Positions 17,785-42,125 of a stretch of 64,000 nt of DNA are shown here, piece by piece. Under the pieces are notes generated by a model that saw only the letters and a program-made list of their open reading frames with translations, was not told the DNA's origin and ran no database searches. The position numbers and the translations under genes are program-made. Every line of letters begins with the position of its first letter. The stretch's first letter is position 1. The DNA comes from Methylobacter sp. (lineage in GTDB: Bacteria > Pseudomonadota > Gammaproteobacteria > Methylococcales > Methylomonadaceae): contig JAGXGY010000014.1 in NCBI GenBank assembly GCA_024636505.1, positions 1-64,000 of the forward strand, written 5' to 3'.

Positions 17785-18096
17785 TTACTTAATAATATGA
17801 ACCTGAGTCTCTTTGTTGCCCAGATTATCCAGCCAACTGACGGTGAGTTTATCGCCGATGTTGCCGCCTCTTAACATAAAAGCAAAAAAGGGGTCTTTAG
17901 CAATGCCGGCACCTGTTTTGGCGGTAATAATAAGCGTTTTATTTAATTTTACCGTGAGTTCCTGAATAAAATGCGCCGGGATTAGTGCATGGGTTTTGGC
18001 ATCGCGATTACGGCCGTGTTCCATCGGGTGGGCTATCAGCATCCTGATTTGGGTTTTTTCATCCTGGCGCTTAGTGCGTATTTTAATGTTCGACAT
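17785..18096 (-). CDS. soxZ: Thiosulfate oxidation carrier complex protein SoxZ
   Basis: 103 residues with the SoxZ pattern: KIRTKRQDEKTQIRMLIAHPMEHGR at the N-terminus, AHFIQELTVKLN in the middle and GDKLTVSWLDNLGNKE at the C-terminus. SoxZ is the small immunoglobulin-fold partner of SoxY in the periplasmic sulfur-carrier complex. It follows soxY by seven bases. None of soxA, soxX, soxB or soxC is present in the window, so the role may be sulfur carriage for another enzyme. Confidence 0.93.
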   Translation of the reverse strand: MSNIKIRTKRQDEKTQIRMLIAHPMEHGRNRDAKTHALIPAHFIQELTVKLNKTLIITAKTGAGIAKDPFFAFMLRGGNIGDKLTVSWLDNLGNKETQVHIIK

Positions 18097-18103
18097 GCGA
18101 ATG

Positions 18104-18568
18104 CTAGCAACCGCCCAAGGTGACGATGACTTTTTCTCTGGCGCTGTAAAATCCTTCGCTAGACTCTACGATGACCATCACCACAGATGATTCGGTTATT
18201 TTTAAGCGGGTCGATACAAAAGGATCAAGGTCTGGCGATAATTCAAATTTGGCCGCCAAGGGTGTCGGGTTTTTTTCGATCAGTATCGCAATGCTTTCAA
18301 TATTTTTTAGGGTGCTGGTTATCGTAATCGGGACAGCGGCGCCATTGACCGCTATTTTGGGAAGTTGGATGTCGATTTGATCGGATGCGATAATGTCCTG
18401 ATCTTTGAATAAACGCTTTAGGGTTTGTTGTAGGTTATTGGTTGATAAGCTATCGGAGCGTTCTGTCGCCTTTGATTCGGCTGAGGCTAACAGTCCGCCG
18501 GGCGCAATAATTGCGTAAGCGCTTAAGGCAACAGATTTTTTGATGAATGCTCTGCGATGGTCGGTCAT
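18104..18568 (-). CDS. soxY: Thiosulfate oxidation carrier protein SoxY
   Basis: 154 residues. The N-terminus HRRAFIKKSVALSAYAIIAPGG is a twin-arginine (TAT) signal. The protein ends in VTLGGC, the flexible arm whose terminal cysteine carries the sulfur substrate; most SoxY end GGCGG, so here the cysteine is the very last residue. It is translated just before soxZ. Stand-alone SoxYZ occurs in many proteobacteria lacking full Sox. Confidence 0.92.
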   Translation of the reverse strand: MTDHRRAFIKKSVALSAYAIIAPGGLLASAESKATERSDSLSTNNLQQTLKRLFKDQDIIASDQIDIQLPKIAVNGAAVPITITSTLKNIESIAILIEKNPTPLAAKFELSPDLDPFVSTRLKITESSVVMVIVESSEGFYSAREKVIVTLGGC

Positions 18569-20962: not shown

Positions 20963-21249
20963 AAGAATATAACCTTGGGTTGGTTTGGGAATTTTAGTGG
21001 ATTATTTTGACGGCTAAAGTCAAAAGCACCTTGACATCAGTCCTCTAAAGGAAAGTATATTTCGTGCGCATTAACTGAGTTATTCTATCAGTCCTTTGAT
21101 GATTATTGCGATAATTTTTCAGAAAAGCCCCTTCTTTCAGATTATAAGTATCTGCCCAAACTTAACGGCTTATAAAACAATTAGTTAAATTCACATATGC
21201 ATGATTTCTGGTTAATAATTGACTCACGGATTGCAATGGCATCGTCCGG
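20963..21249. other. AT-rich gap between NRPS operon and lipoprotein gene
   Basis: 287 bases without a gene. It must hold the end of the NRPS transcript and the promoter of the lipoprotein-thiD-thiE unit (both read leftward). No convincing terminator or operator was recognised. Confidence 0.4.
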
Positions 21250-24200
21250 TCATTGCAGTGCATGCAGCTTTTTTTGTAAGTCTACGACATCTTGCAAGCG
21301 CGGCTCTAACTCATGCTCTAATAAATGCAATAATTGTTTATGCTGTTCAATACAAAATGGCTTTAACTCGCAGATCTTATATTTCATGGCGATAGCTTTG
21401 CTAAGCTGCTGTTGTTGCATATAGATGAAATGTAATGTTTCATATCCGGCTGTTAAATAGGGATAAGTTTGAACGCCGTCAAGCGCAACCTGTTCCGCCT
21501 CATCATAGCGCTCTACAGCAATTAAATTTTTCACATGAATATAGTAATTGATAGGTTTGTAGGGATCAGTATCGAGTAGTTTTTTGGTGAAATTAATAAC
21601 ATAGTTATAGTTTGTTTTGTTGATATTCTTGCTAATTTCCTGCGCAAAACTGTGCATTCCGGTACTAATATACTCAGGATAGTACTCTTTAAAATGACAG
21701 GATATTTTATTAAAAATACTCATCGCTTTTGAATAATTCTTTTTATGCACATAGGCTAAACCAAGATAGGATAAGGCTAGATAGTCTGTATGATTGTTTT
21801 TTAAAGCATCCCTGGCATGAATGATGGTTTGTTCAAAATCTTCTAAAGCGAAATAATTTTCAGCAAGATTCTGATAAACGTGCGCTCTTTCTTTGTTAGT
21901 AGAGCATTTTATTAATGCGCGTTTATTAATAATAAGAGCATCTTGTGCGCCTCTTGCATATCGAGTTGTCTCGGCTAACTTAATTAACATAGCAGCTGAA
22001 TGATGTTCATACGTATGTAAATACTGATGATAATACTGTATCGCCTGAGTCAGTTTTCCCTGTTCTTCCAGTTGAGCGATATTAGCCAAATCAAGGGCCG
22101 GGGCATCGTAGCTGTGAATATCCCTGGTTATAATGATATTGCAGCCGGTTTCAAACCAAGTGCCGAACCTATCAACGATACAAAACCTTAAAACAGCTTC
22201 GGCTGATTCGTTGAGTTTATTGACATGATAAAAAGCACTGCATTTTTGACCCGGCGCTACAGCAATATCAAGGGTTACTTTATTTTCAGCATATAAAATA
22301 GCCCTGCCTAAATTGGATAACCAATGATGTGTTATCGATAGCTGTCCCGCAGGCCATAAAATTTGACTGCAATTGGTTATCTCGACCCTAAAAATAATTT
22401 TTTGGGCGCTTTGCTCCTGTAATACCGCCTGAATATGACATTGTTTAGCCAGATCAGCTAGCGGCTCAGCCGACTTATTTTCCAATATGTTTTTAATGCG
22501 AGACTCAATGCGTTCAGCTACCATCATTGCCGATATATAATATAATTCCGGATAATGTCGGCTCTCTATGACATCCAGTGTCCAACCGCCAGGATAATAT
22601 TCTTTTAAAATATCGGATTGATCCAGTCGCGATAATTCGTTAATTAGACCGTTTTCATGAAAAAGTAAAAAAGCAATATTACCTGAATAGGTACAAGGCA
22701 AGCTTTGATCGACCATAATCAATAAAGGTACTGACTTTTGTTGTGCCAACAGTCGAGTCGCTATTTCAAAAGCCAATAAACCGCCTGAACAATACCCCCC
22801 TAATAAATAGGGGCCCGATGGGTTTAATTTAATTATTTCACCGGCATAATAATCGGCCAAGGCAGAAAAATTATGCTCATGCAATTTAATGACATTAAAC
22901 CCGGACACTAAATCATAAAGCGGCCTGTTTTTACTATGTGCGCCGAGATACTTTCCTCCATTAACAAAATACAAGGGAATGCCGGATAAATGCTCATTGT
23001 AAGGAAATATCAGCGGATGGTCAGGGTGCTGTTTTTCTTTTTTTCCGTTGGCATAGGTCAATAGACGTTTAAAGTTGCTATCCGCCATGCCATATTGGTT
23101 TATTGCTTGTGCCTGAGTCGGTTTTGTTATCGACTGAAGATGAATGGCCTGCTCTTCGATAGTGTAGCTTTGCAACAAACCATTAGCCGGAAAAGAGATG
23201 GTCAGTTCTTTTTCTATGAATACGGTTAACTGGAAAAACAGAAAAGAATAACCCCCCAGATCAAAAAAGTTGTCATGCCTGCCAACGGAAGGAATGCGTA
23301 ATACTTTTTTCCAGACACGCGCTAACTGTCGCTCCAATTTTCCTTGGGGCGCGGTAAAGGTGGCTTCATCCGTTTGCGACGTTTGTTCCGGTTTGGGTAA
23401 TGCGTGTCGATTGAGCTTACCGTTCGGCAGTAACGGTATGCTTGCCACGATGACAAAGGCAGATGGCAGCATATAGCTCGGCAACTTCTCCTTGAGAAAT
23501 TGACGCATGACAGCTGCATCCGGGGGATTGTCTTGCATCTCGGGCACCAGATAGGCAGTCAAGCGTTGGTCACCCGGCTGATCTTCCCTCATGATAACGG
23601 CTGCGCCGACTATTCCGGAATACTGTAGTAACACCGCTTCAATTTCACCTAACTCGATGCGGAAACCGTGCAGCTTAATCTGCTGGTCAATACGCCCCAA
23701 AAATTCGACGGTCCTATCGGGCAGATAACGCGCCAGATCACCGGTTTTATACAAGCGCTCCTGAATGTCATTGCTGAACGGATTGATAATAAACTTGTCA
23801 GCAGTCAATTCGGGGCGATTAAGGTAACCTCGCGCCAAGCCATCGCCACCGATATGCAACTCGCCCGCCACACCTACCGGAACCGGTTGTAAATGTTTGT
23901 CCAGTATATAAAACTGGGTATTGGCAATAGGACGACCAATCGGCGTGACCCTAGTCAAGAAAGTGTTGCCGGATAAACGCTGCGCGGATGACCAGACGGT
24001 GGTTTCGGTCGGGCCGTAGAGATTCCATAACGCTTTGGATTTTTTTCGTAAACGTAAGCCCAAATCATGGGGCAGGGCTTCGCCGCCGCATAAAATTTTC
24101 AGTTGCGGATTGCCTGTCCAGCCCGCCGCCAGCAACAAATGCCAAGCCGCCGGTGTGGCTTGCATCAGAGTAATCGCGTCAGTTTGCTGCAATGTTTTGG

Positions 24201-26316
24201 TTAAACCTGACCAACCCTCGGCAGTGAAAAGATCATGGCGGACAATGATGGTTTTTGCGCCGCAGATAAGTGGCAGATAAATTTCCAAGCCGGCTATATC
24301 AAAAGACGGCGTGGTCAGGCCCAGTAAAACATCTTGGCCGTTTATTTCAAGCAGCTTGACCATTGCCGTTAAAAAATTGACCATTGAGCGATGATTAATC
24401 TGTACGCCTTTGGGTTTTCCGGTGGAGCCTGAGGTATAAATGACATAGGCCAGATTTGCAGAATGAAGGCCAACTTCCGGCAAAATGGACAGGGTTTCCG
24501 GTAATTTCGAGTCCAGATAAACCCGTTGTATCCCGTTATTTAAGGTCAAGGCGTCGGTGACCGAAGCAAACTTTTTCTGGGTTAACAACAGCGACGCTTT
24601 TGAATCGTCCAGCATAAAAGCCAGACGTTCCAGCGGATAAGTCGGATCGAGCGGCACATAGGCACCGCCCGCCTTCAATATGGCCAGCAGGCCGATCACT
24701 AGGTCAATACTGCGCTCCAGGCAAATCGCCGCCAGACTATCCGCTTGTACGCCCAGTGTTCGCAGGTAATGGGCCAAGTGATCGGCTTTGTCGTTCAACG
24801 CTTGATAACTCAGTTGCCGACCCTCAAAAACCAGCGCAATGGCATCCGGTGTTCTTGCCGCCTGCTGTTCAAAAAGTTGATGAATACAGCGGTGTTTCGG
24901 ATAGTCGGATTGGGTGGCATTCCATGTAACCAATAACTGCTGACGTTCAGCGGCAGTCAGCAGCGGTAATTGGGCAATGCTGGTTTCCGGAGCTTCAATA
25001 ATGGCTTCCAGCAAGGTCTGAAAATGACCTATCAGCCGGTTAATGGTCCCGGCATTGAATAAATCCGTGCTGTATTCAATCGTTCCCGTTAAGCCGTCGG
25101 GATGCTCCTTTAGTGACATTAACAAATCAAACTTGGCGGTTGAATGCGGTACGGCAAGCCTGCTGATGGTCAATCCGGGCAATTGCAAGTCTTGGGTAGC
25201 GGGTTGCAAAATCAGCATGACCTGAAACAACGGATGTCGGCTGGCATCACGCGGCACATTCAATTCAGCCACCAGCTTTTCAAAGGGCAAATCCTGATGT
25301 GCGTAAGCGTCCGAGCAGGTTTTGCGTACCCGGCTTAATAGCGCATTAAAACCGGGCGCGCCGGATAAATCAGTCCGTAATACCAGCGTATTGACAAAAA
25401 AACCGATCAGATTTTCAAGTTCCTGCCGATTGCGTCCGGCAATCGCAGTGCCGAGCACCATATCATTCTGGCCGCTGTAACGATGTAACAGGACTTGCAG
25501 GGCTGCCGATAAGGTGACGAACAAGGTCACGTGTTGTTGTCGGCTCAGCATTTTCAAACGCTGGGTCAAGACGGCGGACAACTGAATGTCTGCTTGCGTG
25601 CCCCGATAAGTCAGCTGTTTGGGACGAGGCTTATCCGTTGGCAATGCCAATACCGCCAAACCGGTCAACTGGGCTTTCCAATAGCCAAGCTGTCTTTCCA
25701 GCACCTCGCCCTGCAGCCATTCGCGTTGCCAGACCGCGTAGTCGGCATACTGAATGGGCAGTTCAGGTAAATCGGCAGGCTGGCCTTGGCTAAAAGCCCG
25801 ATAAAAACGGGCCAATTCTTGCCTAAACACGCCCATAGACCAGCCATCAGAAATACTATGATGCAGGGTAACTATCAGGATATGTTCCTGTTCCGATAAT
25901 CTGAGCAACAAGGCGCGTATTAAGGGGGCTTGTTTAAGATCGAACGGTTTATTGGCTTCTGTCTGGAGCAGGCGCTGGATTTCGCTATGCTGATTTTCTT
26001 GAGGCAATTCCATCAAGGTGCAGGCAAAGGGCATTGACGCCTTAATGACCTGAACCGGTTCGCCATTTTGTTCGACAAAACACGTCCGCAAGCTTTCATG
26101 ACGGGCAACAATGGCCTTGAGGCTCTGTTGCAAGGCAGGAACATCCAGTTTGCCCTTCAGTTGAGCGGCCCAAGGAATATTATAAAGACCGCCGATGCCG
26201 AGTAAGCGGTCTAAAAGCCAAAGCCGTTGCTGGGCATAGGAGACGGGGAAAATGTCATCATTTTTAACGGGGGATTGTAAACAGGGCGTGTGGTTGTGTT
26301 TTTGAAGGTGGCTCAT
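21250..26316 (-). CDS. One-module NRPS: C-A-PCP-TE with Ig-like and TPR tail
   Basis: 1688 residues. Condensation domain about 20-450 with intact HHSISDG (152-158). Adenylation domain about 470-960 with YTSGSTGKPKG (about 629) and YGPTETT; reading the ten specificity positions by alignment to GrsA gives D-I-L-Q-L-G-L-V-W-K, the known glycine code. Carrier domain about 985-1055 with LGGYS (Ser is the phosphopantetheine site, about 1020; usual form LGGHS). A thioesterase-like alpha/beta hydrolase follows, with GYCSGG (Cys near 1176 where Ser is usual). Residues about 1320-1430 look like an Ig-like beta domain (VEITNCSQILWPAG), and about 1440-1688 are TPR-type helices. The tail is unusual for an NRPS. 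Last gene of a four-gene operon, 12 bases after the A-PCP gene. Product unknown. Confidence 0.9.
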   Translation of the reverse strand: MSHLQKHNHTPCLQSPVKNDDIFPVSYAQQRLWLLDRLLGIGGLYNIPWAAQLKGKLDVPALQQSLKAIVARHESLRTCFVEQNGEPVQVIKASMPFACTLMELPQENQHSEIQRLLQTEANKPFDLKQAPLIRALLLRLSEQEHILIVTLHHSISDGWSMGVFRQELARFYRAFSQGQPADLPELPIQYADYAVWQREWLQGEVLERQLGYWKAQLTGLAVLALPTDKPRPKQLTYRGTQADIQLSAVLTQRLKMLSRQQHVTLFVTLSAALQVLLHRYSGQNDMVLGTAIAGRNRQELENLIGFFVNTLVLRTDLSGAPGFNALLSRVRKTCSDAYAHQDLPFEKLVAELNVPRDASRHPLFQVMLILQPATQDLQLPGLTISRLAVPHSTAKFDLLMSLKEHPDGLTGTIEYSTDLFNAGTINRLIGHFQTLLEAIIEAPETSIAQLPLLTAAERQQLLVTWNATQSDYPKHRCIHQLFEQQAARTPDAIALVFEGRQLSYQALNDKADHLAHYLRTLGVQADSLAAICLERSIDLVIGLLAILKAGGAYVPLDPTYPLERLAFMLDDSKASLLLTQKKFASVTDALTLNNGIQRVYLDSKLPETLSILPEVGLHSANLAYVIYTSGSTGKPKGVQINHRSMVNFLTAMVKLLEINGQDVLLGLTTPSFDIAGLEIYLPLICGAKTIIVRHDLFTAEGWSGLTKTLQQTDAITLMQATPAAWHLLLAAGWTGNPQLKILCGGEALPHDLGLRLRKKSKALWNLYGPTETTVWSSAQRLSGNTFLTRVTPIGRPIANTQFYILDKHLQPVPVGVAGELHIGGDGLARGYLNRPELTADKFIINPFSNDIQERLYKTGDLARYLPDRTVEFLGRIDQQIKLHGFRIELGEIEAVLLQYSGIVGAAVIMREDQPGDQRLTAYLVPEMQDNPPDAAVMRQFLKEKLPSYMLPSAFVIVASIPLLPNGKLNRHALPKPEQTSQTDEATFTAPQGKLERQLARVWKKVLRIPSVGRHDNFFDLGGYSFLFFQLTVFIEKELTISFPANGLLQSYTIEEQAIHLQSITKPTQAQAINQYGMADSNFKRLLTYANGKKEKQHPDHPLIFPYNEHLSGIPLYFVNGGKYLGAHSKNRPLYDLVSGFNVIKLHEHNFSALADYYAGEIIKLNPSGPYLLGGYCSGGLLAFEIATRLLAQQKSVPLLIMVDQSLPCTYSGNIAFLLFHENGLINELSRLDQSDILKEYYPGGWTLDVIESRHYPELYYISAMMVAERIESRIKNILENKSAEPLADLAKQCHIQAVLQEQSAQKIIFRVEITNCSQILWPAGQLSITHHWLSNLGRAILYAENKVTLDIAVAPGQKCSAFYHVNKLNESAEAVLRFCIVDRFGTWFETGCNIIITRDIHSYDAPALDLANIAQLEEQGKLTQAIQYYHQYLHTYEHHSAAMLIKLAETTRYARGAQDALIINKRALIKCSTNKERAHVYQNLAENYFALEDFEQTIIHARDALKNNHTDYLALSYLGLAYVHKKNYSKAMSIFNKISCHFKEYYPEYISTGMHSFAQEISKNINKTNYNYVINFTKKLLDTDPYKPINYYIHVKNLIAVERYDEAEQVALDGVQTYPYLTAGYETLHFIYMQQQQLSKAIAMKYKICELKPFCIEQHKQLLHLLEHELEPRLQDVVDLQKKLHALQ

Positions 26317-26328
26317 GTTTTTTATGGA

Positions 26329-28194
26329 TTAATGCTGACGGGGCAATGCTTTGATAGTAAGGCTTACCTGGCGATTTTGTTGTTTCAGCAGAGCTTCCAA
26401 GTGTGCCGATAACTCAGCAACGGTGGCGGCTTCAAACAATAGCTGTAGTGGAAAATCGACTTGAAATTGGGTATTAACCTGCGCGATAAATTGCATCGCT
26501 AACAAAGAATTCCCGCCTAAGGCTAAAAAATTGTCATCAATGCCGACACTTTCAATATTGAGCAGTGCTTGCCAGATGGCAAGCAACTGTTTTTGCACTT
26601 GGGTTGGCGGTAATGTGCTGTGTTGTCGGCTGGATTTGCTGTCTTGCGGGCATAATTGCTCTGCAAAGTAGGCCGCCATCTTATGCCGTTGCACCTTGCC
26701 GACAGGGCTTTTGGGCAAATGGTCGCTGATTACAATACGGTAAGGTACCTTAAATGCCGCCAATTTTTGCCGAACATAGTGCCGGAGTGCTTCTGCTTCC
26801 ACTGGGTTTTTTTCAGTTAGAACCACAGCGGCGGCGACATTTTCACCCAAAGTCGCATGAGGCACCGAAAAAGTAACCGCTTCTTTAACGGCAGGATGTG
26901 CCAACAGGACTTGATCAACCTCATAAGGCGATATTTTCTCGCCGCCGCGATTGATGATTTCTTTAATACGACCGGTAATGAATAAATAGCCGTCTTCATC
27001 GAGATAGCCTAAATCCCCGGTACGAAAACCCTGTGCACAAAATGCATCCCGATTAGCGGCATCATTATCACTATAGGCGCGGATGACCGTTGGCCCTTGA
27101 ACGACTACTTCGCCCTCAATCATTGACGGTACATTTTGCCCCATATCGTTAATAACACTGATTTTACAATGGCCGTAACTGATGCCTACTGAACCTTGTT
27201 TGCGAATACCCGGAGGCATGGGGTTACTGCTGATATGCACCACTTCAGTCATACCGTAAGGCTCAATAACGGGAACTTTCAGGATATTTTCCAGTTCATT
27301 GATTAAAGCAACCGCTAACGGTGCCGAACCTGAGCGAATGAAGCGCAATGACGGGTTGGTCTGAAAGCCCGGCGTTTTTTTAATTTGTTCTAAAATCATC
27401 CGGTGTACCGTCGGTGAGGCGGGATACCAGCTTGGGTCATAGGCTTGCAAATAAGCGACGAAAGTTTCAGCTTGAAATTCTGAGATAGACACACAACTGC
27501 CGCCCGCCGCCAAAGGCACTAAAACACCTGAAACCAAGCCATGCGTATGAAATAAAGGCAGTGCGTTTAGACAACAATCCTGTTCAGTGAGCCCCATAAA
27601 CTTTGCAACACTAATACAAGTTTGGCAAATAGCCTGTTGCAGAATAGGAACCAGTTTAGCTTTAGCGGTTGAGCCTGATGTATATAACAGCAGCGCAATA
27701 TCGGCGGCACTGGCAAAATCAGAATTGATAGCAGGCAATCCGGTATCGCCGCGCAATGAAAAACTACCCGCTCCATGAGAAAGCTCTGGAATAAGTTCAA
27801 TAACAGGTATATTGAAACGTTGGGCAATGAAGATTCTCATTGCAGAGTTTGAGTTAGATAAAACAAGCAGTGCGTTGGGTTTAAGGTCAGATAAATAGCG
27901 TTCCAATTCTGCGTCAGTACAGTTCGGATTCAACGGCGCAAATGACGCACAGGAGCTCACGGCAAGAAAAGCAACCGCAGCTTCCGGGCTATTAGGCAAA
28001 ATGGAGGCAATGCGGCTTCCGGAGCTCAAACCCATTGAGTTTAATTGTTCGCGGATATGCTGGCTTAGGATTAATAAATTCTTATAGGTTAATGGCAGAC
28101 GCGCTGGCGCTATCATCGCGGCTTTATTAGGTGCGCAGCTTGCCCAGTAAGAGAATAATTGAATTAAACTTTGAGGTTCGGTAGCTGGAAACAT
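26329..28194 (-). CDS. Acyl-CoA ligase-like adenylation protein fused to a carrier domain
   Basis: 621 residues. Residues about 1-510 are an ANL-superfamily adenylating enzyme with LLYTSGSTAKAKLVP, LPLFHTHGL, EPYGMTE, RTGDLGYLDEDGY and RIKEIINRGGEKISPYEVD; the HTHGL and overall pattern resemble the oxalate-CoA ligase (AAE3/Pcs60) branch rather than amino-acid-activating A domains. The C-terminal lysine is in SPVGKVQR. Residues about 530-605 are a carrier domain with LGGNSLLAM. It probably activates a carboxylic acid and loads it on its own carrier, then hands it to the NRPS condensation domain. The acid is not known. Confidence 0.85.
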   Translation of the reverse strand: MFPATEPQSLIQLFSYWASCAPNKAAMIAPARLPLTYKNLLILSQHIREQLNSMGLSSGSRIASILPNSPEAAVAFLAVSSCASFAPLNPNCTDAELERYLSDLKPNALLVLSNSNSAMRIFIAQRFNIPVIELIPELSHGAGSFSLRGDTGLPAINSDFASAADIALLLYTSGSTAKAKLVPILQQAICQTCISVAKFMGLTEQDCCLNALPLFHTHGLVSGVLVPLAAGGSCVSISEFQAETFVAYLQAYDPSWYPASPTVHRMILEQIKKTPGFQTNPSLRFIRSGSAPLAVALINELENILKVPVIEPYGMTEVVHISSNPMPPGIRKQGSVGISYGHCKISVINDMGQNVPSMIEGEVVVQGPTVIRAYSDNDAANRDAFCAQGFRTGDLGYLDEDGYLFITGRIKEIINRGGEKISPYEVDQVLLAHPAVKEAVTFSVPHATLGENVAAAVVLTEKNPVEAEALRHYVRQKLAAFKVPYRIVISDHLPKSPVGKVQRHKMAAYFAEQLCPQDSKSSRQHSTLPPTQVQKQLLAIWQALLNIESVGIDDNFLALGGNSLLAMQFIAQVNTQFQVDFPLQLLFEAATVAELSAHLEALLKQQNRQVSLTIKALPRQH

Positions 28195-28206
28195 GGTTGT
28201 GTATTT

Positions 28207-29883
28207 TTAACGTTCTGGGACAAGCGAGGGTGTTATCACTTCTATAACAAAAGGCTGATGAATAGTTTGAGCCTGTTTTATGGCCAGCTCCAAATCACTG
28301 TGCCGATCGACTTTTATGCCGTTTATGCCAATGGCCGCCGCAAAACCCACCCAATCTATTGGGGGCAATTGCAGCGTGGAATAATTTTGAGGCTGTAAAT
28401 AGGAGGCGGTAGCGGCATAAGCGGCATTGTTGCAGATAACAAAAAGGACGGGGATTTGATAACGCGCCGCAGTCGCTAACTCCATGCCGTGCATCCTCAT
28501 GCAGCCGTCACCGGTTATAGCCACGACTTGTTGTTGTTTATTGGCAAGTTGTATGCCGATTGCCGCCGCAAGACCCCAGCCCATCGGCGCGGTAGTTGCC
28601 GGGTTAAAGAAAGTATTGGGTTGTTTGACCTGCCAATAACGCCCTGATAATTGCCGGTGCATGCCTGCATCGGCAACCAAAATGCTATCGTCAGGAAGCT
28701 GCTGTTGCAGTGTTTGAATGAGCTGAATGAGCGGAATAACGGGGTTTGATAAAGAGACCATAGCGGTCTCTTTATCGGGTTTATTCGCTGTTAAGCTGTT
28801 AAGCCAATCCATGCGATAAGCTGCGGAATCGCGTAACGGTTGCAAAAGATTATCGACATTAATCAGTGCGACTAATGCAGAAAAGCTATCGGTGATCAAT
28901 TCTATATCAGGTTGATAAGGGTGCGAAGCCGGGGTTGATACCGTATCGATACGGACTAATAGTCGACCGGGGGCATTGAGCCGTTTATCCCATCCCAGCG
29001 TATCCCGTTCATTTAAATCGGTGCCTAAAATCAATAATAAATCGATTTTTTCGGTAAAAATAACGGCATCGGCACACGCATTTCCGCCATAGCCGAAATT
29101 ACCCAAGTTAAAGGGAGATGTCTCAGCCATAACACCTTTAGCGCCTAATGTCGTGACCATAGGCAAGGCATAGGTTTTGGCAAGAAGCATTAGTAATTGT
29201 GCAGATGCTTCTTGCGTATATAAGCGCTGGCCAATCACAATCAGGATTTTTTTGGCTGTATTTAAAGCGGCTATAACCTTGTGCAGTTTAACCGTCGCTA
29301 TGTCTGGATGCGGTTGATCGGAAATGACGCAGGAAAAAGCCGAATGTTGTGCAAGGATGTTTTTGGGTATGGATAAATGGGCAGGAGCGGTGTGCAACAA
29401 TATGGCATCCCAGGCTTGGTTCAACTGGGTGATTAATGCCTCTGCTGTTGTTACGTTGGCGGCGTGCTGCAATGCCGCAGAGAATAACGCACTGTCTCGA
29501 CAAGCGCTGGAGCCGCCATCCTGAAAGGCGCCAATGCCTTGTAAATCGACCGGTACGTTTCCGCTAATAAATAATACACGGCTGTTGTCCATGCGTGCAG
29601 TGATGGCTGCCGTTAGCATATTGCTGGCACCGGGACCGCCGATACTGAGGCAAACAGCGATTTTTTTTGTTGCGCGGGCATATCCGTCCGCCATATAGGC
29701 CGCCCCAAGTTCATGATTGGCGACGACAACTTGGATTTGATCGGTAGACGCCAGCGCCTCCAATAACGCTGCAATTTGTCCGCCCGGAACCAAAAATACC
29801 CAGCGGATGTGTCGTTGCTGCAACCATTCCACAACTAATGACGCGCCATTATGCGTTGGTAATAGCTCGGTTGTCATTTTCAT
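28207..29883 (-). CDS. ThDP-dependent enzyme of the acetolactate synthase-like group
   Basis: 558 residues with the three-domain ThDP fold. The catalytic glutamate is in VVANHELGAAYMADGYAR (about residue 57), the central FAD/nucleotide-like domain is about 190-340, and the ThDP-binding motif GDGCMRMHGMEL...NNAAYAA is at about 430-460. Homologues include acetolactate synthase, benzoylformate decarboxylase, oxalyl-CoA decarboxylase and sulfoacetaldehyde acetyltransferase; the exact reaction cannot be told. Here it is not near ilv genes and lacks a small subunit. It overlaps the SDR gene by four bases (ATGA) and precedes the A-PCP gene by 12, so it belongs to the NRPS operon and likely forms or breaks a C-C bond on the acyl building block. 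Confidence 0.85.
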   Translation of the reverse strand: MKMTTELLPTHNGASLVVEWLQQRHIRWVFLVPGGQIAALLEALASTDQIQVVVANHELGAAYMADGYARATKKIAVCLSIGGPGASNMLTAAITARMDNSRVLFISGNVPVDLQGIGAFQDGGSSACRDSALFSAALQHAANVTTAEALITQLNQAWDAILLHTAPAHLSIPKNILAQHSAFSCVISDQPHPDIATVKLHKVIAALNTAKKILIVIGQRLYTQEASAQLLMLLAKTYALPMVTTLGAKGVMAETSPFNLGNFGYGGNACADAVIFTEKIDLLLILGTDLNERDTLGWDKRLNAPGRLLVRIDTVSTPASHPYQPDIELITDSFSALVALINVDNLLQPLRDSAAYRMDWLNSLTANKPDKETAMVSLSNPVIPLIQLIQTLQQQLPDDSILVADAGMHRQLSGRYWQVKQPNTFFNPATTAPMGWGLAAAIGIQLANKQQQVVAITGDGCMRMHGMELATAARYQIPVLFVICNNAAYAATASYLQPQNYSTLQLPPIDWVGFAAAIGINGIKVDRHSDLELAIKQAQTIHQPFVIEVITPSLVPER

Positions 29884-30641
29884 GCCATGTAGCTGCCGCC
29901 GTTTACATCCAAACTGACACCGGTGATATAGGAAGCTTCGTCAGAAATAAGAAAAACAATGGCACCCGCCATTTCTTCGGGTTGCGCCAGTCGATGTAAA
30001 GGGATAGTCGCTAAAATATGTTCGCGTTCCTGAGCGGATAACGCCTCCCATTTGCCTGTTGCCCGTTCCGTTAGTGCTATGCCCGGAGCGACAGCGTTGA
30101 CGGTGATACCGAAGCTGCCCACTTCCGAAGCAAGATGTCGGGTAAGTCCGAGTAAACCGGCTTTAGCACTGGCATATTGCAAGCCGCCTAGTCTGCTTTT
30201 ATTTCGACCGGCCAACGAGGACACGTTAACAACGCGGCCATAGCGTTGCGCTTTCATAATCGGAATCACCTGTTTACATAACAAGAAGGCACTTTTTAAA
30301 TTAAAGTTATGGGTGTGGTCCCAATCTTCAACAGTAATGTCTTCCAAGTATCGTAAATGAGAGGCCCCACCTATGTTATTAACCAAGCCATCAATTCGAC
30401 CGAACTGTTTTAAGGTTTTGTTGGCCAAGCATTCGGCAGTGGCGGGAAGCGTGGCATCGCCCGCTATCGCAAGCGGCGTGTGTCCAAATTCACTGAGTTC
30501 TTGTTTTAATTGTTCTAATCGTTCTATGCCGCGCGCATTAATGACTAATTGGGCGCCTTCCTTGACCAGTTTTATCGCGGCAGCTTTTCCAATACCCTCT
30601 GAAGCCCCGGTGATGATGATAATTTTATTTGCAAAACGCAT
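29880..30641 (-). CDS. Short-chain dehydrogenase/reductase (FabG-like)
   Basis: 253 residues, Rossmann fold. NADP-binding TGASEGIGKAAA (about 10-21), NNIGGA (about 88), and the catalytic Ser-Tyr-Lys set in NVSSLAGRNKSRLGGLQYASAKAG (Y and K about 156 and 160). C-terminal YITGVSLDVNGGSYMA is the family ending. It reduces a ketone or oxidises an alcohol; as the first gene of the NRPS operon it probably works on the acyl or product intermediate. A FabG role in fatty acid synthesis is less likely given the context. Confidence 0.87.
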   Translation of the reverse strand: MRFANKIIIITGASEGIGKAAAIKLVKEGAQLVINARGIERLEQLKQELSEFGHTPLAIAGDATLPATAECLANKTLKQFGRIDGLVNNIGGASHLRYLEDITVEDWDHTHNFNLKSAFLLCKQVIPIMKAQRYGRVVNVSSLAGRNKSRLGGLQYASAKAGLLGLTRHLASEVGSFGITVNAVAPGIALTERATGKWEALSAQEREHILATIPLHRLAQPEEMAGAIVFLISDEASYITGVSLDVNGGSYMA

Positions 30642-36566: not shown

Positions 36567-37919
36567 ATGATGACCATTATTCAAAATTTGATACGTCACA
36601 TACGCCTACTGGAAATTGTCGGCGATTTGATCCGGGTGAAGGCTGAAGGCGTGGCTTTTGGCGATCTCGCCGTGGTTGAGAATATCGACGGCGAAATATC
36701 CCTGGCCAAAGTGGTCGATCTTGACCGGGACATTGTCAGTTTGCAGGTATTTTCCGGCGGCAAAGGTTTGTCGACCGACGCTAAAGTCACTTTTCTTGGC
36801 CGCCCGTTGGATGTGGTTTATTCCGATAATATTCTCGGCCGGGTTTTCCGGGGTTCCGGCGAGCCTATCGACGGCGGCCCGGCACTGCCGACCGATCCGC
36901 GCATTCCGGTTGGCGGACCTACGGTGAATCCGGTGATGCGGGTGATGCCGTCGCGGATGATCGAAACCCAGGTGCCGATGATCGACTTGTTCAACTGTCT
37001 GGTGGAAAGCCAGAAAATCCCCATTTTTTCCATCGCCGGCGAACCGTTCAATGAGCTGCTGGCGCGCATCGGTTTTCAGGCCAATGCCGATGTGGTGGTG
37101 TTTGGCGGCATGGGGCTGATTTTCGATGATTATCATTTTTTTCGCACCGCTTTTGAGGAACACGGCGTTTTTCACCGCACCATCATGTTTGTCAATCAGG
37201 CGTCCGATCCCCTGGTCGAGCGCTTGCTGGTGCCCGATATGGCGCTGGCGGTCGCCGAAAAAATGGCGGTTGAGGATAACAAACGGGTGCTGGTGCTTTT
37301 GACCGATATGACTGCGTTTGCCGATGCGATGAAGGAGTTGGGCGTGGCGCAGGAACGCATTCCGGCGGTGCGCGGGCACATGGGCGATTTGTACACACAA
37401 CTGGCCTCGCGCTATGAAAAAGCCTGCGATTTTAAAGGAGCGGGTTCGGTGACAATCCTGAGCGTAACCACTATGCCCGGCGATGATGTGACCCATCCGG
37501 TGCCGGATAACACTGGCTATATCACCGAGGGGCAGTTCTATCTGCATGACGGTTTTATCGATCCGTTCGGTTCGCTGTCACGGTTAAAGCAGCATGTGGT
37601 CGGCAAGGCCACGCGCGAGGATCACGGGCAGATTATGAACACCATGATCCGTTTTTATTCCGGCGCGGTGGAAGCGCAAAAGAAGCAGGCGATGGCCTTT
37701 GAATTGTCGCAGTTCGATGAGAAATTGCTCAAGTTCGGCGGGTTTTTCCGCGAGCGTTTTATGGACACCCGGGTTTCCTTACCGGTGATCGAGGCCCTGG
37801 ATTTGTGCTGGCAGACGCTGGCCGAATGTTTTGAGCCCAAGGAATTGCTGATGAAGCAGAGCCTGATCGATACATATTACCCGAAAGCCGAGCCGCACGA
37901 TGCGGACAAGGCCGCGTAA
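36567..37919 (+). CDS. ntpB: V/A-type ATPase subunit B
   Basis: 450 residues, the regulatory non-catalytic subunit of the V1/A1 head. Typical segments are GDLAVVENIDGEI, the degenerate nucleotide loop PIFSIAGEPFNELLARI (Walker A lost, as expected for B), VFGGMGL, LVLLTDMTAFADAMKE and the C-terminal helical domain. Start ATG 36567 is followed by a second ATG at 36570; no strong Shine-Dalgarno is visible. First gene of the seven-gene operon B-D-I-K-E-DUF2764-A, all on the plus strand. Confidence 0.95.
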   Translation: MMTIIQNLIRHIRLLEIVGDLIRVKAEGVAFGDLAVVENIDGEISLAKVVDLDRDIVSLQVFSGGKGLSTDAKVTFLGRPLDVVYSDNILGRVFRGSGEPIDGGPALPTDPRIPVGGPTVNPVMRVMPSRMIETQVPMIDLFNCLVESQKIPIFSIAGEPFNELLARIGFQANADVVVFGGMGLIFDDYHFFRTAFEEHGVFHRTIMFVNQASDPLVERLLVPDMALAVAEKMAVEDNKRVLVLLTDMTAFADAMKELGVAQERIPAVRGHMGDLYTQLASRYEKACDFKGAGSVTILSVTTMPGDDVTHPVPDNTGYITEGQFYLHDGFIDPFGSLSRLKQHVVGKATREDHGQIMNTMIRFYSGAVEAQKKQAMAFELSQFDEKLLKFGGFFRERFMDTRVSLPVIEALDLCWQTLAECFEPKELLMKQSLIDTYYPKAEPHDADKAA

Positions 37920-37925
37920 ACCGCC

Positions 37926-38555
37926 ATGGCCAAGCTTAAACTGAGCAAACACGCTTTACACGAACAGCAGGAAAACTTAAAACTGTACCAGCGGCTATTA
38001 CCCTCGCTGGACATGAAACGGCGGCAGTTGATGATGGAAGCAAAAAAGGCGCAAGGCGAATATGCGGCGGCGCAGGCGGCGGTGGAAGCCCTGGAAATCC
38101 GCATCGGCGAGGAATTACCGATGCTGGCCGACGAGGAATTTCGCCTGGCCGGGTTGGTGCATTTGAAAAGTTACAGCGTCGTCGAACAGAACGTGGTCGG
38201 CGTAAAGCTGCCGTTTTTGGACAGCATCGAATGTGCCGTTGCCGATTATTCGCGGCTGGCGACGCCGCCTTGGGTCGATACGCTGGTGCAACGCCTAAAA
38301 GATGCCGCAGAGCAACGGATGCGTGCCGAAATCGCCGGTGAGCGGGTGCGTATCCTGCAAATTGCGGTGCGGCGCATCACCCAGCGGGTCAATTTGTTCG
38401 AGAAAATCCTGATCCCGACCGCCAAACAGAATATCCAGAAAATACGCATTTTCCTGGGCGATGCCGAGCGCGCCAGCGTCATCATTTCCAAGCTGGCTAA
38501 ACACAAACAGCTACAACAACGCGAAGCGGAACTGGCAGCGGAGGCGGCGTTATGA
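37926..38555 (+). CDS. ntpD: V/A-type ATPase subunit D (central stalk)
   Basis: 209 residues with long N- and C-terminal coiled-coil helices (MAKLKLSKHALHEQQENLKLYQRLLPSLDMKRRQL and RRITQRVNLFEKILIPTAKQNIQKIRIFLGDAER), the signature of subunit D that rotates inside the A3B3 head. The gene starts seven bases after subunit B and ends overlapping the subunit I start by four bases. Confidence 0.94.
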   Translation: MAKLKLSKHALHEQQENLKLYQRLLPSLDMKRRQLMMEAKKAQGEYAAAQAAVEALEIRIGEELPMLADEEFRLAGLVHLKSYSVVEQNVVGVKLPFLDSIECAVADYSRLATPPWVDTLVQRLKDAAEQRMRAEIAGERVRILQIAVRRITQRVNLFEKILIPTAKQNIQKIRIFLGDAERASVIISKLAKHKQLQQREAELAAEAAL

Positions 38556-40336
38556 GCATTGTAGCCATGCATAAAGTGACCTTCATCGGTATCACTGCCG
38601 ATCGCGAGCGTTTGCTGGCCGACCTGCAAACAACGGGTTGCGTGCAGATTATTTCGTTGACCGAGCGCAGCGCTGACTATGCCGAGGCCGCGCATACAGC
38701 AGGCGCGCGCGAGGCGTTGCTGTTTTTACAGACCTATCCGCAGCACCGGCGGCAGGTTGTCGACAAGCAGCGCTTCAATGCGGTCAAGGTTCAGCAGCAG
38801 ATATTGGCGGTGAGAAATCACCTGCGCGATTTGGAAGATGAGCGCGATTTTTTGATTAAACGCATTCAGGACATCCGTCCTTGGGGCGATTTTGTGTTGC
38901 CGCCGTTGTCGGACATGAACGAGCAGCGGCTTTGGTTCTACACAGTCCTGCATAAGGATTTACCGAAAATCGAAGCGTCGGCGGCGGTTTGGCAAGTGGT
39001 GCGGCGCGACAACCGTTTTTGTTATGTGATCGTGGTGGACAGGGATGAACCGCTGGACATGCCGGTGCCGCGTATTCATCTGGGCAGCCGGTCTCGGCAC
39101 GAGCTGGAAGCGAGGCTCGATGAAGTCGAATTTATCATCGAAGATGTGCAGGCGGAACGGGCTTATCTGACCCGCTGGCATGATTTGTTCAGCCACGACC
39201 TGAATCAGCTGGAAGACCGCGCGGTACGCGAGACGGCAGCGGCGCAGGTCTACACCAACGACGCGGCTTTCGCCTTGCAGGGTTGGGCACCGGCCGAAAG
39301 TCTGGCATCATTGGAAAGTTATGCTAAAGCACAGGCGTTTCATTTTTCTGCCGAAGCCTCAACACCCGAAGACAATCCGCCGACGCTGATGCGCAATCCG
39401 TCCTGGCTGGCTGCAGGCGAAGATTTGGTGACTTTTTACATGACCCCCGGTTATCGAACCTGGGACCCGTCATCGGTCACTTTCGTGTCTTTTGTGATCT
39501 TTTTTGCCATGATTTTGTCCGATGCCGGTTATGCGGCGGTGATGATTTTAGTCTTAATGGCGCTGTGGAAAAAAATGGGGCGCTCCTATTCGGGGTGCAG
39601 ATTTCGCCCGTTATTATTGTCGGTGGTGATAGCGTCGCTGGGGTTTGGCGTTATGGTGGGCAGTTATTTCGGGGTGAGGCCGGACGACGCCTCCTGGGCG
39701 GGCAAACTGCATGTGCTTGAGATCAGCGATACCGACCGGATGATGCTGCTATCGGTAGTCATCGGCATTTTCCATATTGTGTTGGCTAATGCGATGAATG
39801 CCTACCGTTGTAAAGATTGGGCGGATAAACTGCCGTCCATCGGCTGGATCGGCGTGATTTGCGGCGGCTTTATATTGGCGATTAGCAGTTCCGTCAGCAT
39901 CGCCGGTTTGCAAACACTGGGCATCGCCTTAATCGCTATCGGCAGCGTATTGGTCATCGCTTATACTGCGTCGCGCGAAAAACCGCTCGCCCGTTTTGCC
40001 CAAGGCATGTTGGGCCTGACCAAGCTGTCCGGTGCCTTGGGCGATGTGTTGAGTTATCTGCGCTTGTTTGCGTTAGGGCTTGCATCCGGGTCGTTGGCGG
40101 TGGAATTCAACAACATGGCCAGCGGCGTTTATGAGAGCTATCCCGGCATCGGCCTGTTTTTCGCGTTGCTGATACTGATACTCGGACATGCGGTCAATCT
40201 ATTGCTCGGCATAACCAGTGGCGTTATTCACGGGTTGCGCTTAAACGTGATCGAGTTTTTCAACTGGGGACTCACAGAAGAGGGAACCTTGTACAAACCA
40301 TTTAAAAAAGCAGAGGATAATGTATGGAACCGTTAA
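38552..40336 (+). CDS. ntpI: V/A-type ATPase subunit I (stator a subunit)
   Basis: 594 residues. N-terminal cytoplasmic half (about 1-300) with coiled coil and alpha/beta lobes, then seven or eight membrane segments from about residue 315. The segment ending SYLRLFALGLASGSLAVEFNNM carries the essential arginine of the ion path, and the last segments include GHAVNLLLGITSGVIHGLRLNVIEFF. Slightly shorter than the 650-residue norm. Overlaps the proteolipid gene by 13 bases. Confidence 0.93.
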   Translation: MSIVAMHKVTFIGITADRERLLADLQTTGCVQIISLTERSADYAEAAHTAGAREALLFLQTYPQHRRQVVDKQRFNAVKVQQQILAVRNHLRDLEDERDFLIKRIQDIRPWGDFVLPPLSDMNEQRLWFYTVLHKDLPKIEASAAVWQVVRRDNRFCYVIVVDRDEPLDMPVPRIHLGSRSRHELEARLDEVEFIIEDVQAERAYLTRWHDLFSHDLNQLEDRAVRETAAAQVYTNDAAFALQGWAPAESLASLESYAKAQAFHFSAEASTPEDNPPTLMRNPSWLAAGEDLVTFYMTPGYRTWDPSSVTFVSFVIFFAMILSDAGYAAVMILVLMALWKKMGRSYSGCRFRPLLLSVVIASLGFGVMVGSYFGVRPDDASWAGKLHVLEISDTDRMMLLSVVIGIFHIVLANAMNAYRCKDWADKLPSIGWIGVICGGFILAISSSVSIAGLQTLGIALIAIGSVLVIAYTASREKPLARFAQGMLGLTKLSGALGDVLSYLRLFALGLASGSLAVEFNNMASGVYESYPGIGLFFALLILILGHAVNLLLGITSGVIHGLRLNVIEFFNWGLTEEGTLYKPFKKAEDNVWNR

Positions 40337-40770
40337 TTTTGGCACTGGGTTGGGTGGGGCTGTATGCGCCGTTAGCGTTGGGCGCGGTAGGCAGCATGAT
40401 CGGCTGTTCCCGTGCCGGCAGCGCGGCCTGCGGCGCTTTATTGGAAGTCGAAAGCGGCTACGGGCGTTATATCGGCGTGGCGGCGATGCCGTCTTCGCAG
40501 ACTATTTACGGCATCGTTGTGACCATGGCCTTGCGCCGCGAACTGAATGTGGAAAATTCGCCCGGCATTTTCGGTCTGGGCCTTTTGGCCGGATTGGCGC
40601 TGTTGTTCAGCGCTTCCGCCCAAGGTTCCGCCTGTGCCGCATCGATTAACGTATCAAAAAACAAGCTGGAAATTTTCGGCATATCATTGGCACCGGCGGC
40701 GCTGGTTGAAGGCTTTGCCGTCTTCGCTTTCGTGTTCGCTCTGGTGCTGGCTGCAGGCATTCCGAAATAA
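40324..40770 (+). CDS. ntpK: V/A-type ATPase subunit K (rotor proteolipid)
   Basis: 148 residues with four membrane helices (two hairpins), as in Enterococcus NtpK. The helix-2 segment MPSSQTIYG, the helix-3 segment SASAQGSACAA and the helix-4 segment APAALVEGFAVFAF line up with the sodium ligands of Enterococcus NtpK (Leu61, Thr64, Gln65, Gln110, Glu139; Tyr68 also matches): Ser replaces Thr64 and Met replaces Leu61, both Gln and the Glu are kept. This favours sodium rather than proton coupling. The first hairpin carries no acidic ion-binding residue, as in the 16-kDa type. Confidence 0.93.
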   Translation: MEPLILALGWVGLYAPLALGAVGSMIGCSRAGSAACGALLEVESGYGRYIGVAAMPSSQTIYGIVVTMALRRELNVENSPGIFGLGLLAGLALLFSASAQGSACAASINVSKNKLEIFGISLAPAALVEGFAVFAFVFALVLAAGIPK

Positions 40771-40788
40771 TCTCACGGGACTGACAAC

Positions 40789-41454
40789 ATGACAGAACAA
40801 GAACAAGCTAAAACCGGTGCCGGGGTTCAGGAACTGGTCGACCGTATCCGCGATCAGGGCATATTGGCAGCCAACGAGCAGGCCGAGCAGATTATCAAAG
40901 ACGCCGAGGCGAAGTCGGCAAGACTGCTGCTGGATGCCAGGCGCGAAGCCGCGCAGCTGCGGGAAAGCGCCCGCATTGAGATTGAATCCAATCATGCCGC
41001 CGCCCTGGACGCGCTGAAACTGTCGGCGCGCGACACCATGCTGCAACTGGAGGCCAAAGTGTCGTTGGCCTTCGAGGTTTTCGTGCAACGGCTGGTGACA
41101 TCGGCCACCACCGATGAGCAATTTATTAAATCCATTGTGCTGGTGCTGGCCGGCCATGTCGAAAAAGAGCTGATCGGCGACAAGGAAGTGCAAATCCTGG
41201 TGTCCGAGTCGATATTAATGGGACAGCCCAATCAGAAACTGAGCGAACTGACTAATCAGACCATCATCGGCCTGTGCAGCGAAATGCTGCGCGAAGGCGT
41301 TGAGCTGATTCCGTCCAGCGACATCGAAGGCGGCGCCAGCGTGCGTCTGGTTAAAGAAAAACTGGAGATAGACTTGTCCGACAAGGCCATTTCCAAGCTG
41401 CTTTACCAGCGCATTTTGCCCCGTTTCAAGGCGATATTCGAAGGCAGAGATTAA
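40789..41454 (+). CDS. ntpE: V/A-type ATPase subunit E (peripheral stalk)
   Basis: 221 residues. A long charged N-terminal helix (IKDAEAKSARLLLDARREAAQLRESARIEIE) followed by a globular C-terminal domain. Typical for subunit E, which anchors the A3B3 head to the stator. Starts 18 bases after subunit K. No separate G/H stalk partner gene is visible in the operon. Confidence 0.85.
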   Translation: MTEQEQAKTGAGVQELVDRIRDQGILAANEQAEQIIKDAEAKSARLLLDARREAAQLRESARIEIESNHAAALDALKLSARDTMLQLEAKVSLAFEVFVQRLVTSATTDEQFIKSIVLVLAGHVEKELIGDKEVQILVSESILMGQPNQKLSELTNQTIIGLCSEMLREGVELIPSSDIEGGASVRLVKEKLEIDLSDKAISKLLYQRILPRFKAIFEGRD

Positions 41455-41459
41455 GCGTC

Positions 41460-42125
41460 ATGGCCGAGCCTTACATGACGCTGGTTTCCAGTCTGCCCTA
41501 TCTGCCGCCGTTTGAGCAGGCCGAGCGCTCGCCGATTACGCGTTTACGTCTGGAACAGCGTTTGCATAGCCTGGACGCCGACGATGCTAGGCAACTGGCC
41601 GAAGCGGAAGCCCTGGTCAGTTGGCGGATGTCTCTGGCCAAGCCGAAAACCGATGCCGATATGGTGTTGCGCAGTCGTGCCGCAATGCAGAGTATCAGCC
41701 AACCGGCGTTGCGCGAATTCATCGAATTCAGGATAGACCAGCAAGTGATACTGGCCGGTTTACGCCAGCGCAATGCCGGTATCGATGCGGCGGCTTTGGA
41801 GCCCATTTCAGGCGCCAGCCGCTGGGTACGGCATATTGCGGCGCATTGGGGCGACCCGAATTTCAAGCTGGCGGCGGTTTACCCGTGGATAAGCGACGCG
41901 CGAAGTTATCTTGACGGCAACAATGCCGACGCCCTTGACAGCCTATTGATGCACATCATCTGGCAACGGCTAGGCCATATCGCAGAAAGCAACACGTTCG
42001 GCTTCGAGGCGGTATTCGCCTTTGTTTTTAAATGGGACATTCTTCAAGCCTGGCTGGCGCGCGATGCCGCACAGGCGAAGAGCCGATTTCAAGATTTGAT
42101 TAAAGAGATAAAAGATGACAGCTGA
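41460..42125 (+). CDS. DUF2764 protein, probable C-like subunit of the V/A-type ATPase
   Basis: 221 residues, mainly helical, beginning YMTLVSSLPYLPPFE, the conserved N-terminus of the DUF2764 family. This family is found in V-type ATPase operons of Bacteroidetes and spirochaetes at the position where subunit C would stand, and is thought to replace it as the link between rotor ring and central stalk. It overlaps the subunit A gene by 11 bases and follows subunit E by five. Function inferred from context. Confidence 0.75.
   Translation: MAEPYMTLVSSLPYLPPFEQAERSPITRLRLEQRLHSLDADDARQLAEAEALVSWRMSLAKPKTDADMVLRSRAAMQSISQPALREFIEFRIDQQVILAGLRQRNAGIDAAALEPISGASRWVRHIAAHWGDPNFKLAAVYPWISDARSYLDGNNADALDSLLMHIIWQRLGHIAESNTFGFEAVFAFVFKWDILQAWLARDAAQAKSRFQDLIKEIKDDS

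Follow-up and report, generated by a model that had tools for sequence, protein, structure and literature searches.

The window, the whole 64,000-nucleotide stretch of DNA analysed here, carries four adjacent open reading frames whose combination raises the question of what they make together. They encode an SDR, a ThDP-dependent enzyme, an A-PCP didomain and an NRPS, all on the minus strand and covering 9.4 kb (Table 1). To our knowledge, few natural-product pathways of methanotrophs are known. The original prediction had placed the genes at exactly these positions and on a single strand, and its spacing is borne out as well, with a 4-base overlap at 29880-29883 and 12-base gaps at 28195-28206 and 26317-26328. 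Such a four-gene arrangement is far beyond chance. The DNA itself shows the domains with unbroken motifs, an adenylation pocket of glycine type, a thioesterase (TE) with a Cys nucleophile, and signs of conservation and selection. The set is an intact, selected, accessory NRPS operon that is rare in searchable genomes and most likely makes an acylated glycine. The favoured reading, about as likely as not, is a two-carrier assembly line in which a small alpha-oxygenated acid made by the ThDP enzyme and the SDR would be coupled to glycine and released, or else transferred, by the Cys-type TE.

Table 1. Positions in the window of the operon's genes, their domains and the segment retained in a related genome.
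Feature	Position	Strand	Basis
SDR oxidoreductase, 253 aa	29880..30641	-	TGxxxGIG, NVSS, YxxxK motifs; 96% identity in Ca. M. titanis
ThDP-dependent enzyme, acetolactate-synthase type, 558 aa	28207..29883	-	catalytic Glu (HEL), AFQD, GDG..NN
A-PCP didomain, 621 aa, oxalate-CoA-ligase-like	26329..28194	-	A domain about 26695-28149; PCP about 26398-26589
NRPS C-A(Gly)-PCP-TE-Ig-like-TPR, 1688 aa, glycine predicted	21250..26316	-	Pfam, motifs, pocket
NRPS condensation domain	24931..26256	-	Pfam; HHSISDG intact
NRPS adenylation domain, predicted glycine	23416..24873	-	Pfam; pocket DILQLGLVW
NRPS PCP	23140..23328	-	Pfam; LGGYS
NRPS thioesterase, borders approximate	22507..23004	-	GYCSGG (Cys); Asp in LIMVDQ; His proposed in IESRH
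NRPS Ig-like stretch, weak label, approximate borders	22162..22494	-	G011 relative weakly matches N_BRCA1_IG
TPR repeats, NRPS C-terminus	21253..22134	-	Pfam; confident helices in part only
Stretch kept as scar in G094	21241..21283	.	last NRPS codons + stop + 3' flank

Pfam and NCBIfam searches agree on the four protein types. Pfam assigns adh_short_C2 to the SDR (2.5e-57), TPP_enzyme C, N and M domains to the ThDP enzyme (5e-37, 2e-32 and 3e-23), AMP-binding and PP-binding to the A-PCP (1e-56 and 2e-16), and Condensation, AMP-binding, PP-binding and Thioesterase to the NRPS (4e-118, 7e-85, 1e-6 and 9e-15). Core motifs are intact in the SDR, the ThDP enzyme, the C domain and the NRPS carrier (GGYS), and condensation, adenylation and carrier domains are all present with their core motifs, as the definition of an NRPS cluster asks. 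The C-A-PCP-TE architecture originally proposed for the NRPS stands as far as it goes; it overlooked the last ~415 residues, which form an Ig-like stretch followed by TPRs, as well as the Cys nucleophile of the TE.

The adenylation domain of the NRPS is predicted to be glycine-specific. Pocket positions, with Lys as the tenth residue, were assigned on what we take to be the general rules. Eight of the nine pocket residues are those of AB3403 (DILQLGVVW in the printed alignment), which is also the best solved match to the pocket and thioesterase pieces (A1S_0115; PDB 4zxh). According to the available text of its description, the AB3403 structure contained glycine and AMP, and glycine was the best amino acid among those tested (PMC5376624). 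This likeness lends support to the glycine call of the original prediction. LgrA, whose second module we presume to be glycine-specific, was set aside as a yardstick in favour of AB3403; the pocket of that module, as aligned, looked unlike that of the window, a mismatch that counts slightly against inferring specificity purely from the code. No occurrence of the pocket code as text was found in a literature search.

The tail of the TE is the most unusual part of the operon. In the TE itself, the Cys and Asp align with those of the AB3403 TE, which shares the Cys motif (GGWCFGG), and the His is placed only tentatively, from visual inspection and an alignment to a fatty-acid-synthase TE that is not significant. 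A catalytic Cys is also described in the accessible part of the report on the obafluorin thioesterase (PMC6668435). Beyond the TE, the Ig-like stretch of the window protein has no Pfam match, and a relative in genome G011 touches N_BRCA1_IG at E 0.05. Structure prediction of the tail from a two-row alignment gave a mean pLDDT of 40.7, with confident helices (block pLDDT 75-87) only at ~residues 1461-1530 of the model, which form part of the TPR region.

Elsewhere, relatives recombine the same parts. In G142, from the same family but another genus, an A domain of the A-PCP kind runs directly into PCP-TE-Ig-TPR (L074 12317-15001), with 58% identity to the window tail over 579 residues. Its PCP resembles the NRPS PCP of the window by eye; the first PCP, the C domain and the glycine A domain are absent, and the contig ends inside the A domain. 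G011, from another family, encodes A-PCP-sulfotransferase (sulfotransferase by Pfam) beside TubC_N-C-(A fragment)-PCP-TE-Ig (L075 3454-11914), in what by eye is a polysaccharide-like locus of glycosyltransferases, sulfotransferases and sugar-nucleotide enzymes; a P450 and a protein that matches no Pfam family are also encoded there. Both genomes share the A-domain kind, the Cys-TE motif and the Ig-like part with the window, but no complete glycine-type A domain was seen in either. Neither gave a ThDP match at E<=1e-60, and the G142 fusion therefore argues against an obligatory four-gene logic, though its contig is truncated as described. Further afield, a Gemmobacter plasmid encodes an A-PCP-TE protein beside a gene resembling, by eye, one in G011, and four genomes of one genus encode proteins of ~2,150-2,195 residues with alternating A and C domains (A-C-A-C). 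One of these four, G702 (L116 8390-17132; relatives L117, L120, L121), encodes a ~2,160-residue A(oxalate-ligase-like)-PCP-C-A-PCP-C protein, its carriers assigned by eye; visual inspection also finds no Asp at its usual place in the pocket of the second A domain, and a PPTase-like gene (by eye) and a luciferase-like gene follow.

These tails raise the possibility that the acyl-glycyl chain is transferred rather than released, the Cys-TE-Ig-TPR end handing it on to a polysaccharide, lipid or protein that the Ig/TPR part would recognise. The fusion of the TE to Ig-like and TPR parts is conserved not only in G142 but, at 93% identity, in Candidatus Methylobacter titanis, and transfer would also fit the direct feeding of the same PCP-TE by the G142 A domain, the glycan-type genes around the G011 relative and the lack of an exporter adjacent to the operon. 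It fits less well with the neighbours scanned in the window and, by eye, 15 kb of the G142 contig, none of which include glycan genes, with the mere 28% identity of the G011 protein over the TE/Ig part, and with the solved relatives of the TE, which we take to include hydrolysing and cyclising enzymes. Transfer is rather unlikely. About equally unlikely is the wider proposal that Cys-TE-Ig-TPR would be a new off-loading unit moving acyl or acyl-glycyl groups to a surface or protein acceptor, with G142 as its minimal form and the window operon as a version elaborated with a purpose-made starter and a glycine module.

The starter acid would be selected by the A-PCP, for which the oxalate-CoA-ligase kinship noted in the original prediction is supported by its best solved matches and by the retention of most pocket motifs. 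Three oxalate-CoA ligases head the solved matches of its A domain (E 2.6e-97, 2.9e-97 and 2.4e-83); identity to AtAAE3 over the A domain is 39%, and the pocket motifs shared with AtAAE3 and Pcs60 comprise FHxHGL, WYxxxPTxH, RFIRSxSA and one TExxH. In contrast to these ligases, the A domain shares its protein with a PCP, a fusion that suggests carrier loading, and its loop (TEVVHISSNP) is one residue shorter; placement of the loop His differs by aligner, HMMER pairing it with the ligase His and MAFFT not. In SWYPASPTVH, Pro and Ser stand where nine of nine bacterial ligase-like sequences (L099, L103, L109-L115) carry Thr and Val, a count that leaves out L084 (G046, 29%), in which the ligase motifs are absent. 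Given the shorter loop and the two changes in a near-invariant stretch, the acid may differ from oxalate in size.

Modules of this starter type recur, with A-PCP matches at E<=1e-85 in at least 24 of 239 genomes of the phylum sample, the window's own included, and no characterised example was met. In some other genomes an A-PCP of this kind precedes C-A-PCP, and the stretches searched there gave neither a ThDP nor an SDR match. TExxH is absent from the aligned A-PCP relatives, whose PCP behind the A domain was recognised by a crude pattern test (G011, Gemmobacter, Sphingobium, Paraburkholderia and four genomes of one genus, L105-L108), some of which keep other motifs. Genes of PanE type and fumarylacetoacetate-hydrolase type occur near two stand-alone relatives, one in Rhodobacteraceae SC52, where these genes are annotated, and one in Methylobacterium bullatum, where they were named by eye. 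The M. bullatum relative is also next to an MFS gene that by eye is oxalate:formate antiporter-like; these neighbours suggest that the stand-alone relatives are oxalate ligases.

Were the A-PCP to load oxalate itself, the product would be N-oxalylglycine, an inhibitor of 2-oxoglutarate oxygenases, and the ThDP enzyme and SDR would serve something else. The ligases among the closest solved relatives, the four retained motifs, including a TExxH that no aligned A-PCP relative has, and the surroundings of the two stand-alone relatives all point this way. Oxalate loading needs neither a ThDP enzyme nor an SDR, yet both are co-conserved, and the loop deletion that makes the place of the His ambiguous and the two altered motif positions also count against it, which leaves this product improbable.

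The best solved matches of the ThDP enzyme are BbmA, CsmA and acetolactate synthases, at 26-29% identity over the aligned parts. It belongs to their family, shares their cofactor motifs and has the ThDP motifs and catalytic Glu of acetohydroxyacid/acetolactate synthases, and it falls far short of the TIGR00118 acetolactate-synthase cut-off (266.8 bits vs 538.35). By the residue roles usual for AHAS, Arg293 aligns with the acceptor-carboxylate position and, as a difference from acetolactate synthases, Tyr495 lies near the AHAS-II Trp464 position. BbmA and CsmA carry Trp and Thr at the Arg site. In a small tree with poor support, the enzyme stands apart on a long branch; alignment and tree statements exclude the G772 row, which was in a wrong frame with 10 stops. 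Literature searches for BbmA, CsmA, PDB 8x3x and 8x3z found nothing, and structure prediction from a two-row alignment gave a mean pLDDT of 35.4. From the AHAS-like features we infer that the starter most probably arises by carboligation of small 2-oxo acids and subsequent reduction by the SDR.

In the favoured assembly line, the ThDP enzyme would decarboxylate one 2-oxo acid and join it to another small one, of pyruvate or glyoxylate size, and the SDR would reduce the new ketone. The oxalate-ligase-like A domain would then adenylate the resulting small alpha-oxygenated acid and load it onto its own PCP, for the NRPS C domain to couple it to glycine on the second PCP. Finally, the Cys-TE would take over the acyl-glycyl chain and let it go, free N-acylglycine being the most likely product, while the Ig/TPR tail would bind a partner. 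We infer the two opening steps, the exact acid, the acceptor and the fate of the chain after the TE. The reading is weakened by the Trp and Thr of BbmA and CsmA in place of Arg, by A-PCP-type relatives without a ThDP match in the stretches searched and by the absence of an adjacent exporter or self-resistance gene. Late action of the ThDP enzyme and SDR on a carrier-bound or released chain, with an ordinary cellular acid as starter, would accord with A-PCP and NRPS relatives that occur without a nearby ThDP match, but is very improbable for an enzyme that has an AHAS-like Arg and belongs among enzymes whose substrates are small free 2-oxo acids.

The full combination is narrowly distributed. 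ThDP matches at E<=1e-60 were found in at least 2 of 311 genomes of the order, the window genome (assembly of 2.83 Mb, 86.7% complete) and Ca. M. titanis (G104), and the one relative among 33 pattern matches in an A-PCP scan of genome contigs was a Ca. M. titanis contig. The conserved order that the original prediction proposed to look for in other Methylococcales is thus seen in the only other carrier found, where all four genes are co-conserved in the same order, at the same site with the same neighbours and with the SDR/ThDP overlap kept; the ThDP/A-PCP gap is 47 bases (ORFs as called) vs 12 in the window. Values of dN/dS between the two copies are 0.06 (SDR), 0.26 (ThDP), 0.25 (A-PCP) and 0.16 (NRPS), consistent with purifying selection on all four genes where present. 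Synonymous divergence is 0.16-0.35 for the operon and similar or higher for four neighbours (0.18-0.45), so there is no sign of a separate recent arrival and recent import was rejected.

More distant ThDP matches at E<=1e-70 occur in at least one further genome of the class sample (369) and at least two of the phylum sample (398), at 31-35% identity, and at E<=1e-50 in at least 2 of 72,556 plasmids, at 33%. SDR-like matches lie in three of these five neighbourhoods, and in none does an ORF of >=120 residues match the A-PCP or NRPS at E<=1e-5; lacking these alongside, the distant relatives are uninformative on function. The searches scored few candidates per genome (e.g. 4/10 in one search), included incomplete genomes and used strict E cut-offs, so the presence counts are lower bounds. 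Loci L008, L009, L056, L076-L079, L095-L098, L118 and L119 were also covered and contribute to none of the statements made here. As far as found, the ThDP/SDR/Gly combination is confined to the two Methylobacter genomes.

The operon was probably lost in a further genome of the same genus, G094, where tamB and ompA flank the equivalent site. The interval is occupied by genes that by eye encode a transposase-like protein, a HicA/HicB-like pair and a haem-motif protein, and a scar adjoining ompA (L053 10720-10780) retains the last ten NRPS codons and the stop, in frame with the 3' flank. It aligns over 40 bases at 95% (E 4e-12; best E of the reversed control 0.2), and G094 gave no other match to the NRPS. 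Because only the NRPS end and stop remain, the set is regarded as accessory, the simplest reading being that a G094 ancestor carried the operon and then probably lost it.

In the neighbourhood scanned, no transporter, regulator or PPTase adjoins the operon, in line with the original prediction, nor does an exporter or self-resistance gene. The nearest such genes, a TetR / outer-membrane efflux / RND set, lie ~6.5 kb off behind unrelated genes. A 228-aa PPTase gene above the ACPS family cut-off, Sfp-like by eye, is present on another contig of the window genome (G000:C65). Promoter and terminator scans at both operon ends found no more than in shuffles. The neighbouring thiD/thiE was rejected as a link to ThDP because, in G094, the segment running from ompA via thiD/thiE to soxZ is retained although the operon is missing. 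Within the window, soxZ and soxY lie at 17785-18568, with no other sox genes among the neighbours scanned. This methanotroph also has, at positions 36567-43929, a set of genes resembling a V/A-type ATPase, with Pfam matches to the subunits A/B, D, I and c.

Known systems share parts of this design. The obafluorin cluster, we presume, also carries a ThDP enzyme. According to the accessible part of its description, the obafluorin NRPS (ObiF/ObiD) resembles the window in having an acid starter on its own carrier and C-A-PCP-TE with a catalytic Cys, and differs in its aryl starter, beta-hydroxy amino acid, beta-lactone, fused MbtH-like domain and a TE Asp on another strand (PMC6668435). AB3403, of the acinetin 505 pathway in Acinetobacter, shares C-A-PCP-TE, the glycine pocket and the Cys TE. 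In the available text its acyl starter is likewise loaded by a separate ligase and carrier, whereas its operon has an acyl-CoA dehydrogenase, a stand-alone carrier, an RND pump and a PPTase, and that text mentions no ThDP enzyme, SDR or Ig/TPR tail (PMC5376624). No characterised cluster with this four-gene set was found among the open-access literature titles listed or in the available part of a review (PMC12247030).

In this operon an acetolactate-synthase-like enzyme is paired with a starter module of the oxalate-ligase kind, and the TE at its end has an unusual tail. As the set is small, complete and predictable in its glycine half, it could be moved whole into a laboratory host. If the proposals above hold, the outcome would be informative whether it is an acylglycine not described before or a novel reaction of acyl transfer. 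With the unusual extension at its release end, the operon may be a good lead, either to a small molecule of a new kind or to a modification of the cell surface.
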